Under the pieces are notes generated by a model. That model ran no database searches. It worked only from the letters and a program-made list of their open reading frames with translations, and was not told where the DNA came from. From assembly GCA_903970185.1 (NCBI GenBank), contig CAJCIC010000020.1:62001-126000 (forward strand): a DNA stretch of 64,000 nt. The letters are read 5' to 3'. Below, piece by piece: positions 2,530 to 62,137 of this stretch. The stretch comes from Gammaproteobacteria bacterium (GTDB lineage: Bacteria > Pseudomonadota > Gammaproteobacteria > Burkholderiales > Burkholderiaceae_D). The first letter of the stretch is position 1. Every line of letters begins with the position of its first letter. Position numbers and translations under genes: made by a program.

Positions 2530-2568
2530 CATTGCTGCGCTGACCGCTTGGCAGCGATCAGGCCAAAT

Positions 2569-3348
2569 GTGAACCAAAAACGAGCGGACAAGGCAGATGG
2601 CGATGCCCGTGCAGGCATTGCGTTTGCGCTTGACCGGGTCGGGCACAGCCGCGGCGGTGTGGCTGTCCTATCGGACCTGACGCTTGCCATCAGGCGCTGC
2701 AAGATGACCGCGGTGATTGGTCCGAGCGGCTCGGGCAAGACCTCCTTGTTAAGGCTCCTGAACCGGCTCGAAGACCCTGTTTCAGGATCGATCGCTCTTT
2801 TTGATCGCGACCTTCGTGCCTACCCCGTACGCGAATTGCGCAGGCGGGTTGCCTTTGTGTTCCAGTCCCCCGTGATGTTCGAAGGAAGCATCGCCGACAA
2901 CCTGCTTGCTGCCTCACGCTTGCGAAAGGCGAATGACACGCCCAAGACGTCGGAGCTTGACCTCTTGCTCGAGAGCGTCGATATCGACCCCTCGATCAAG
3001 GAGCGTGACGCGAGAGGCCTTTCCGGCGGTGAAAAGCAGCGCGTCGCACTCGCCCGTGCGCTGGCCAGCCGGCCCGAAGTGCTGCTCCTTGACGAGCCCA
3101 CGGCCGCGCTCGATGTCGAGAGCGCCGAGCACCTCATGACCATGCTCGCCCGGCTTCGCACGACACAACGCCTGACCATGGTGATGGTCACCCATCGCCT
3201 TGGCGAAGCGCTCGCCGTGGGCGACGACCTGGTCTTGCTTGAAGGCGGCAGTATCGTCGAAGCCGGCAGCGTGGATGAGATGCGGCACGCACCGCGCGCT
3301 GCCCGTACGCGCCAGTTCATGCAATCCGCGCACGAGGCCAGCCCGTGA
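2569..3348 (+). CDS. fetA: ABC transporter ATP-binding protein, FetA type
   Basis: This is the ATPase of a FetAB-like (YbbL/YbbM) exporter, a system linked in E. coli to iron export under oxidative stress. Walker A (GPSGSGKTS, about residues 51-59), the LSGGE signature (about 150), Walker B LLLDEP (about 172) and the switch His in VTHR (about 206) are all present. I prefer the GTG at 2569, which has an AGG a few bases upstream; a TTG at 2548 in the same frame would add seven residues. It overlaps the permease gene by four bases, so the two are translationally coupled. Confidence 0.88.
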   Translation: MNQKRADKADGDARAGIAFALDRVGHSRGGVAVLSDLTLAIRRCKMTAVIGPSGSGKTSLLRLLNRLEDPVSGSIALFDRDLRAYPVRELRRRVAFVFQSPVMFEGSIADNLLAASRLRKANDTPKTSELDLLLESVDIDPSIKERDARGLSGGEKQRVALARALASRPEVLLLDEPTAALDVESAEHLMTMLARLRTTQRLTMVMVTHRLGEALAVGDDLVLLEGGSIVEAGSVDEMRHAPRAARTRQFMQSAHEASP

Positions 3349-4154
3349 CAGGCTCGGGTCCTGTCGATATCGGAGCGCCGAGCCTCGTCCTGGCAGCGGC
3401 CATGATCGCCCTTGCGGCAGCGCTTTCTGCCTGGCAGGAACTGGGTCTGACGAGGACCATCGTCATTGGCGGTTTGCGCGCCACGCTTCAGCTGCTTATC
3501 GTTGCACAGCTGTTGCAGTGGATCTTTCTTTCGAATCGCGCCTATGTCGTGCTGGCAATGCTGCTTGTGATGGTGCTCGTGGCCGGCTTCACGGCAGTGG
3601 GTCGCATCAAGGAGGCGCGAGCCAGGCGTCGTATCGTGGCGCTGATTTCGACCGTGTCGATCCTGCTTGGCTCTGGCGCGACCTTGGCTTATGTCGATCT
3701 TTGCATCATTCCGATTTCGCCTTGGTATGACGCACGCTACCTGATCCCGCTTTTTGGCATGATCGTCGCCAACGCCATGAATGCTGCAGCGCTTGCCGCC
3801 GAGCGCTTGCGCTCGGAGATCGTCGCTCAGGAAGCGGAGATCGAAGCACGCCTGGCACTTGGCGCAAGTAGCGCACAGGCGTGCGCGAGCGCGGTGCGCA
3901 AGGCGCTCGCCGCCGCGATGATCCCCGCGGTCAACGCATTGACGGTGGTCGGAATCGTGTCGCTGCCAGGCATGATGACCGGGCAAATTCTCGCAGGCGC
4001 CGATCCGACGCTTGCCGTGCGCTACCAGATCATCGTGGTCTTCATGCTGACCTGCGCGAGTGCGCTGACGGCGACCTTGCTGGTGTTCTGGTATCGACGC
4101 CAGTTCTTTACCGATGCAGAACAGCTGCGCTATCTCGGCACGTCCGGACCTTGA
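3345..4154 (+). CDS. fetB: ABC transporter permease, FetB (UPF0014) family
   Basis: This is the membrane partner of the preceding ATPase. The 269-residue protein is strongly hydrophobic with about seven transmembrane segments. It carries the UPF0014 landmarks ELGLTRTIVIGGLRAT near residue 30 and RLALGASS...AVRKALAAAMIPAVN...GIVSLPGMMTGQILAGADP around 170-225. In the family this central loop couples to the ATPase. The GTG start overlaps the fetA stop (GTGA). No third component is needed in known FetAB systems. The metal specificity cannot be read from the sequence. Confidence 0.9.
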   Translation: MTGSGPVDIGAPSLVLAAAMIALAAALSAWQELGLTRTIVIGGLRATLQLLIVAQLLQWIFLSNRAYVVLAMLLVMVLVAGFTAVGRIKEARARRRIVALISTVSILLGSGATLAYVDLCIIPISPWYDARYLIPLFGMIVANAMNAAALAAERLRSEIVAQEAEIEARLALGASSAQACASAVRKALAAAMIPAVNALTVVGIVSLPGMMTGQILAGADPTLAVRYQIIVVFMLTCASALTATLLVFWYRRQFFTDAEQLRYLGTSGP

Positions 4155-4220
4155 CGCACCACGACAACGCGCCTGGGCACTACCAAGGGGCGATCATCGC
4201 CTAACCCGCGCCAGTCCTGT

Positions 4221-4294
4221 GGCAGCACTTCGGCATGGACGTTGCTTTTGACGACTCACCGTCAACCTGTCCATGCCGAATGACTCCTGCTGCC
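4221..4294 (+). promoter_or_regulatory. Long hairpin enclosing the start of the MFS gene
   Basis: A perfect 12-base inverted repeat (TTCGGCATGGAC at 4229-4240, GTCCATGCCGAA at 4269-4280) is extended inward by GTTG/CAAC (4241-4244, 4263-4266) and outward by GGCAGCA/TGCTGCC (4221-4227, 4288-4294). In mRNA this would form one long hairpin that buries the ATG at 4280 in its stem. A smaller palindrome GGCGATCATCGCC lies just upstream at 4189-4201. Confidence 0.6.
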
Positions 4295-5557
4295 ACGACC
4301 GAATTGCCTGCCGCTTCCACTCCGACTGAAGTCGAGCGCTGGTTGCAACTGCTCATTGGCCTCGTGTGCATGATGGCGATCTCAAGTCCGCAGTACGTCT
4401 GGACCTTGTTTACCAAATCGCTCACGACCAGTCTTGCTGCCCCGCTCTCGGCGGTGCAGATCACCTTCTCGCTACTGATCGTGCTGCAGACGTGCATGTC
4501 ACCGTTTCAGGGCAGTCTCATCGATCGCTTCGGGCCGCGCCTGATGATCAGCCTGGGCGCAGTCCTGACCGGCTTGAGCTGGGTCCTGTCGTCATTTGCG
4601 AGCTCGCTGACCATGCTCTACCTGACCTACGGCGTGGTCGGCGGCATTGGTACCGGCGCAGTCTACGTCGGTGTCGTCGGGCTGGTCGTCAAGTGGTTCC
4701 CGCTACGGCGCGGTTTTGCTGCGGGCACTGTCGCTGCAGGCTATGGCATGGGCGCCATGCTCACGACCATTCCGATTAGCGCCTCGCTTGCCGCGCGGGG
4801 TCTGAACCAGACGCTGCTGACCTACGGCATCGGCCTTGGCGTCGTCGGCTTTTTGGCCGCGCAGTTCCTGCGCGCACCCCCTGTCGAAGTGGTTTTACTG
4901 CAGCGCGAGGGTCATGCGCGCAGTGAGATTGCGCCGCGCGAAATGTTGAAGTCGCCAGTTTTCTGGCTGATGTTCCTGATGATGACGCTGATGTCGACAT
5001 CAGGTCTGATGGTGACTTCCCAGATGGCGGCCTTTTCGCGTGATTTCGGAGTCGCATCGCTGCTTGTTCTCGGCACTGCGGCGCTTCCTCTGGCCCTGAC
5101 AGTTGATCGCTTCACGAACGGTCTGACACGACCCTTTTTTGGCTTCATCTCCGATCGCATCGGCCGTGAGAACACCATGGCGATAGCCTTTCTGCTTGAA
5201 GGCTTGGCGATGACCGCGTGGCTTTTTGGCCGCTTTGACCCGGTCTTGTTCGTGATGCTCTCGGGCCTGGTGTTTTTCGGCTGGGGCGAGATTTTCTCAC
5301 TGTTCCCATCGACGCTTACCGATACCTTTGGTTCGCGCCACGCCACGGCCAACTACGGCTGCCTCTACATTGCCCAGGGTGTCGGGTCGGTACTGGGCGG
5401 GCCCCTTGCGGCACTCCTGCGCGAACAAAGCGGCAGCTGGATTCCGGTGTTCGGGCTTGCCATCGCCGCCGATGTGATCACGGCGCTTTTGGCCTTGTTC
5501 GTGCTCAAGACGATGCGCCGCCGCTATCTCGAACGCCGTCTGGAGGCGCCGCTCTAG
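4280..5557 (+). CDS. MFS transporter, oxalate/formate antiporter-like
   Basis: This 425-residue, 12-helix carrier of the major facilitator superfamily resembles the oxalate:formate antiporter (OFA) group. The start of helix 1 (SPQYVWTLFTKSL), the loop 2-3 motif (GSLIDRFGPRLMISLGA) and the GYGMGAM helix 5 pattern fit. Its substrate is probably a small carboxylate, by family. The chosen ATG at 4280 lies inside a hairpin; an in-frame ATG at 4235 is also possible, and neither has a good ribosome-binding site. The stop codon overlaps that of the convergent AhpD-like gene by four bases (CTAG). Confidence 0.82.
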   Translation: MTPAATTELPAASTPTEVERWLQLLIGLVCMMAISSPQYVWTLFTKSLTTSLAAPLSAVQITFSLLIVLQTCMSPFQGSLIDRFGPRLMISLGAVLTGLSWVLSSFASSLTMLYLTYGVVGGIGTGAVYVGVVGLVVKWFPLRRGFAAGTVAAGYGMGAMLTTIPISASLAARGLNQTLLTYGIGLGVVGFLAAQFLRAPPVEVVLLQREGHARSEIAPREMLKSPVFWLMFLMMTLMSTSGLMVTSQMAAFSRDFGVASLLVLGTAALPLALTVDRFTNGLTRPFFGFISDRIGRENTMAIAFLLEGLAMTAWLFGRFDPVLFVMLSGLVFFGWGEIFSLFPSTLTDTFGSRHATANYGCLYIAQGVGSVLGGPLAALLREQSGSWIPVFGLAIAADVITALLALFVLKTMRRRYLERRLEAPL

Positions 5558-50798: not shown

Positions 50799-50882
50799 AA
50801 GACGACTCCCTCCTGCAAGCCCGATGATCGATCTCAAGCAATCAGCGTGCCATTACGCTCGGAAGTCCCAGGGCGCGACGCT

Positions 50883-61539: not shown

Positions 61540-61682
61540 CGCGGCACTGTCAATTCGACGGCGAAAGCGCGAGTGTCAACCAGCGTGAACGACACGCGAC
61601 ATCTGCGCTTTCGCCCTTGTGTGTTCTGCCGGCTCGGTGCATTGTAGCGATATCGCCATCACATCAAGCTTTTGGGCGACGC

Positions 61683-61702
61683 TCTTCGAGTCATCTCGAA
61701 GA
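61683..61702. repeat. Inverted repeat TCTTCGAG/CTCGAAGA
   Basis: A perfect 8-base inverted repeat with a 4-base loop TCAT, 60 bases upstream of the lipoprotein gene. It lacks a T-run, so it is more likely a protein-binding site or leader hairpin. Confidence 0.35.
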
Positions 61703-61762
61703 TACGACGATGTGGCACATATCCAGACACGGGCACTAGACAGCCGTATTGAGGAGATTGGC

Positions 61763-62137
61763 ATGCACTGCATTTTTCGACCGCTCGCGGCACTTTTCTT
61801 TGCGCTGGCTTTGGCCGGATGCTCGACGATCCAGTCGCTAAACCCGTTTCACCACGATGCTCCCGAGCAGATTGCCTCGCCTTCGGTACCGGCGACGGCC
61901 TACGGCGCACAGCAGCCGATGGGGTATTCCGAGCACGCAGCGGCGATGGCCGGAATCACGGAATTGCACTACGAAGTCGAGTCCGAGCACATTGCGCGCG
62001 ACGCTTCCTGCGGTACCGGCACGGTCGCGCTGCTCCTGGAGAAGGGCCCGGGCTATGAGACCTACTCGGTGCCTTGCGGCGCCACGCGGGTGATGCTCAT
62101 CCGCTGCGAATTCAGCTACTGCCGCACCATGCAATAG
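61763..62137 (+). CDS. Small lipoprotein
   Basis: A 124-residue lipoprotein: signal peptide with lipobox LAGC (Cys20). The rest is beta-rich with three Cys in the mature C-terminal part (ASCGTG, SVPCGATR, RCEFSYCRTM) that might form disulphides. The GAGGAG about six bases before the ATG fixes the start. No family recognised. A long stable hairpin follows at 62138-62171. Confidence 0.82.
   Translation: MHCIFRPLAALFFALALAGCSTIQSLNPFHHDAPEQIASPSVPATAYGAQQPMGYSEHAAAMAGITELHYEVESEHIARDASCGTGTVALLLEKGPGYETYSVPCGATRVMLIRCEFSYCRTMQ

Follow-up and report, generated by a model that had tools for sequence, protein, structure and literature searches.

A hairpin at the start codon of an oxalate/formate antiporter homologue may be built on a sigma-54 promoter and may silence read-through RNA

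A long hairpin spans the beginning of a gene for an oxalate/formate antiporter homologue in the 64,000-nucleotide stretch of DNA analyzed here (the window). We propose, with a probability of about one in two, that transcription from a sigma-54 promoter starts inside this hairpin and that RNA reading through from upstream is locked by it. According to this model, the inverted repeat would have the -24 and -12 elements of the transporter gene's promoter as its 5' arm and inner loop. The mRNA from this promoter would begin near position 4257, carry the 3' arm only, and leave the ATG at 4280 open. RNA running in from the fetAB-like genes would carry both arms and fold into the hairpin, and its translation start would be blocked. 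The transporter would not be made unless a sigma-54 activator fired the promoter. We give slightly less than an even chance to the insulation part of the model, in which the read-through message is silenced and the promoter-made message is not; silencing would then be the selected function of the hairpin. Sigma-54 promoters are known to have almost no basal activity. If the model is true, the hairpin would close the last leak of such a promoter by silencing read-through RNA, and the fold-back trick of transposons would be at work in an ordinary gene.

The gene lies on the plus strand at 4280 to 5557, with ATG 4280 as its likely start, and encodes a major facilitator superfamily (MFS) protein that matches MFS_1 and the TIGR04259 equivalog (429 bits; cut-off, 335). 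The TIGR04259 match begins at 4337, and constraint on the N-terminal codons is low. We found no oxalyl-CoA decarboxylase above the TIGR03254 cut-off in this genome, which is 93% complete (C77:4327-5925, which is L187; C63:18550-20184, which is L188). Thus, the substrate of the carrier may not be oxalate. The nearest upstream gene, in the same direction at 3345 to 4154, encodes a UPF0014/FetB-like permease whose match to FetB TIGR00245 is below the cut-off for that model. It is preceded on the same strand by a gene for an ABC ATP-binding protein (2548 to 3348; domain match), the probable partner of the permease.

The DNA does contain the inverted repeat. The initial annotation had described a 12-base perfect inverted repeat extended at both ends, and all of it is present: from 4219 to 4296 on the plus strand there are three nested pairs of arms, with 9 bp outside, 12 bp in the middle, and 6 bp at the tip. 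The main arms, TTCGGCATGGAC (4229 to 4240, including the -24 element) and GTCCATGCCGAA (4269 to 4280), form a perfect repeat with a 28-nt spacer and were found both by inverted-repeat search and by folding. The same search gave the perfect outer pair, GTGGCAGCA (4219 to 4227) and TGCTGCCAC (4288 to 4296, within codons 3 to 6). Folding and dyad analysis gave the apical pair, TTGACG (4248 to 4253) and CGTCAA (4260 to 4265). As described earlier, one ATG lies in each main arm: the final base of the 3' arm is the A of ATG 4280, and ATG 4235, in frame with ATG 4280, is in the 5' arm.

The 12-bp repeat is not exceptional by itself, as there are three perfect repeats of at least 12 bp with spacers of up to ~80 nt in the 64-kb window. 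Nesting of arms this long (12 plus 9 bp or more) occurred in none of 40 Markov windows and at a single place in the real one. The predicted RNA fold of 4215 to 4300 has an energy of -43.4 kcal/mol (z, -7.4). The fold over the ATG is also strong when 4180 to 4340 is folded (z, -4.5), and z is -8.6 for the hand-placed segment 4210 to 4299. In an unplaced grid of 2,131 segments of 90 nt, the best segment over the hairpin ranked second by z (-5.4); with hand placement at 4210, the hairpin ranked first. We rejected raw fold energy as evidence for the hairpin; it is ordinary (rank 938 of 3,192) in this G+C-rich DNA.

We found that the 5' arm is very probably the sigma-54 promoter of the transporter gene, as judged from its sequence and that of its orthologs. 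The promoter, CGGCATGGACGTTGCT, lies on the plus strand at 4231 to 4246, within the 5' arm and inner loop of the hairpin. It matches 10 of the 12 bases of the sigma-54 consensus, TGGCACG-N4-TTGCW; its first base is off consensus, with C for T. The -24 GG is at 4232 to 4233 and the -12 GC at 4244 to 4245, which gives the GG-N10-GC spacing. ATG 4235 belongs to the -24 element, and we rejected it as a start codon, since it falls within the promoter. From the geometry of sigma-54 promoters we infer that transcription starts at 4257 or 4258, 12 to 13 nt past the C of the -12 GC.

We searched for the consensus in the 300 nt that precede the conserved core in 110 distinct regions, with GG and GC fixed and a threshold of at least 10/12; duplicates, regions shorter than 250 nt, and matches beginning after residue 30 had been removed. 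Sites were found on the forward strand in 53 of the 88 distinct ortholog regions (our own included) and on the reverse strand in none. The 22 more distant homologues had one forward and one reverse site. All 24 further family loci (L160 to L183, some of which duplicate earlier ones) scored at least 10. When our own region was shuffled, 9/12 was reached in about 10% of cases. The closest relative compared, L012 (69% identity), carries the site CGGCATGGGGATTGCT, with 50 nt from GG to ATG against 48 nt here. On this sequence evidence, the scan indicates that control by sigma-54 is widespread in the transporter family.

The genome encodes two RpoN-type (Sigma54_DBD) proteins (C131:1010-1477, L158; C51:27504-27974, L159) and has five strong Sigma54_activat matches. 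A strict motif search found no activator gene next to the transporter gene, and a looser motif found only L150 to L154 (fetched as activators), L067 (the locus of a distant homologue), and L187. By motif, no genes for enhancer-binding proteins were seen near close orthologs. We noted by eye a perfect palindrome, GGCGAT-C-ATCGCC (GGCGATCATCGCC), at 4189 to 4201, ~62 nt upstream of the predicted start, as a candidate regulator site. The site resembles known sigma-54 (RpoN) promoters in its GG-N10-GC spacing, its conservation in orthologs, and the presence of rpoN. It differs from them in that the promoter elements double as a hairpin arm. A literature search pairing sigma-54 (RpoN) with oxalate or the antiporter found no report of such control among the papers listed. 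The Geobacter sulfurreducens gene GSU2490, named an oxalate-formate antiporter, is of RpoD type in the validation table of PMC2725144, and the excerpt of PMC8305402 mentions oxalate and not the oxalate/formate antiporter.

To compare the two kinds of RNA, we predicted the cost of opening positions -12 to +10 around ATG 4280. It was 19.3 kcal/mol for RNA from 4155 and 4.9 kcal/mol for RNA from 4254, 4257, or 4258. The difference in opening cost between long and short RNA, 15.5 for ATG 4280, exceeds that at any of the 43 starts of called genes in the window (maximum, 10.8) and in any of the 31 other orthologs tested (maximum, 8.6). The comparison covered 43 of 44 called genes and 32 of 54 ortholog rows, namely, those with at most 70 nt from transcription start to ATG and enough upstream sequence. 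The list of called genes took ATG 4235 as the transporter's start, for which the difference is -3.5. The native 5' end (RNA from 4257) is predicted to be unusually open, as none of 200 shuffles folds less well. We could recognize no ribosome-binding site in the native mRNA, and no AGGAGG-like site precedes ATG 4280 or ATG 4235; the initial annotation had stated that neither ATG has a good ribosome-binding site. By these predictions the native mRNA is open at the ATG and the read-through RNA is closed. The occlusion of the start codon proposed earlier is thus retained, by prediction, for read-through RNA with both arms and not for the native mRNA.

The hairpin was not seen in the other orthologs. 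We compared pairing and dyads in 54 ortholog rows (one of them, L011, with a score of 9, was a manual addition). For the pairing of the promoter with the start region, the mean z was -0.08 over the 53 orthologs other than our own, against -6.2 for our own, and L012 had no lock effect (-0.9 kcal/mol). The structure is absent from orthologs more distant than the genus. We rejected the hairpin as a conserved ortholog feature; other perfect repeats near ortholog starts sit elsewhere and differ. Because no ortholog counterpart, second copy, or Rfam match of the hairpin was found, a neutral origin or a role at the DNA level may apply. A neutral quasi-palindrome would have the promoter as its 5' arm and a 3' arm that arose by template switching or drift in an unconstrained leader, with no selected role. 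That the hairpin was not seen in other orthologs and that the N-terminal codons are under low constraint (the family model starts at 4337) both favor such an origin. However, the arms match perfectly across 12 and 9 bp, the three nested pairs share one center, and decay would be expected if the repeat were old. We consider a neutral origin unlikely.

All three dyads have their centers within 2.5 nt of 4257. This suits the insulation design but would also suit a DNA-binding site. An operator, with the dyad on +1 binding a repressor or another regulator of the sigma-54 promoter, is plausible at this place, as 13 of the 54 ortholog promoters have a different palindrome there, TTTATG-N4-CATAAA. 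However, 21 perfectly matched bases per arm, at unequal offsets (1 and 7 nt), are more than a dimer site needs, and it is the start codon that is covered. An operator therefore seems quite unlikely to be what the hairpin is. The TTTATG-N4-CATAAA palindrome is centered at +12 to +16 from the predicted start and occurs mainly in Herbaspirillum (L010, L042, L070, L074, L075, L076, L080, L081, L082, L084, L085, L087, and L128). It lies just downstream of the sigma-54 site and probably serves as a repressor operator.

The insulation model calls for RNA from upstream. Between the stop codon of the fetB-like gene (4154) and the hairpin, we found nothing that resembles a terminator. Read-through RNA is thus plausible; we infer its existence from this arrangement, with the fetB-like permease gene as a possible source, and it would be the sole RNA to carry the whole hairpin. 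The same arrangement could be read differently: the hairpin, ~65 nt beyond the point where the upstream reading frame stops and not separated from it by an intrinsic terminator, might mainly be the protected 3' end of a fetAB-like mRNA after Rho-dependent termination. Yet it has no T-run, and it covers the promoter and start codon of another gene. Protection of a 3' end, which would be compatible with insulation, is improbable as the main role.

The earlier suggestion that the oxlT mRNA itself carries a hairpin gated by a ligand or protein draws on the strong fold over the ATG. Because the 5' arm would be a promoter conserved upstream of the gene family, the native transcript is expected to start near 4257, without the 5' arm, and a gated switch in the native mRNA is unlikely on that account. 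The 5' end of this mRNA folds less well than any of 200 shuffles, a search of Rfam with 3900 to 4600 gave no match up to an E value of 5, and orthologs lack the hairpin. The initial annotation had itself named a transcript start downstream of 4240 as evidence against gating, and the start near 4257 is one, by prediction only. We regard gating as very improbable.

We also searched for copies of the hairpin and found no second one in its own genome. Searches of 392 family genomes and of plasmid and phage collections gave no full-length match. Partial matches with an E value of 0.01 or better occurred in 65 of the 392 family genomes (our own included) and were mostly 23 nt long, at 4256 to 4278. 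We rejected this recurrent match as a hairpin copy: it is a chance likeness to a conserved coding string of lepA in the 10 loci that we read, the protein being one that we take to be LepA by its sequence. Insertion of a palindromic mobile element at the gene start was also suggested earlier. In its favor, the inverted repeat is perfect and was not seen in relatives. As far as these collections go, it can be given almost no credence, as there is no second genomic copy and no full match elsewhere and the 5' arm would be an ancestral promoter.

The fold-back of read-through RNA has a precedent in transposons. In the transposase genes of IS10 and IS50, fold-back inhibition of read-through transcripts protects from outside transcription. 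As in those elements, the inverted repeat here lies around the gene's own promoter, and transcripts from outside hide the start while those made from the promoter do not, which here is predicted. Unlike in those elements, the gene is a chromosomal transporter gene with a sigma-54 promoter, and the hairpin, a single copy in the searches above, does not look like part of a transposable element. In IS200 tnpA, a stem-loop in the 5' UTR hides the element's own ribosome-binding site, according to the excerpt of PMC12594629. There, too, it is a 5' inverted repeat that conceals the translation start; however, in that account the element's own 5' UTR carries the hairpin, whereas the native leader here would lack the 5' arm. 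A literature search for a read-through lock found no host gene of such design among the papers listed, and PMC8450116 concerns an IS, as far as its excerpt goes. Only tentatively do we suggest that this is a host gene whose own sigma-54 promoter is the arm of a lock centered on +1, so that activator-driven transcripts alone would be translated and all read-through would be silent.

Elsewhere in the window, an 11-bp inverted repeat at 61560 to 61615 lies directly upstream of the open reading frame at 61619 to 62137, which has the largest start-opening difference of the 43 called genes (10.8 kcal/mol). On the minus strand, a sigma-54 site, TGGCACGCTGATTGCT, at 50837 to 50852 is found shortly upstream of a minus-strand open reading frame that has, by eye, a Walker A motif and an AGGAGG-like site.
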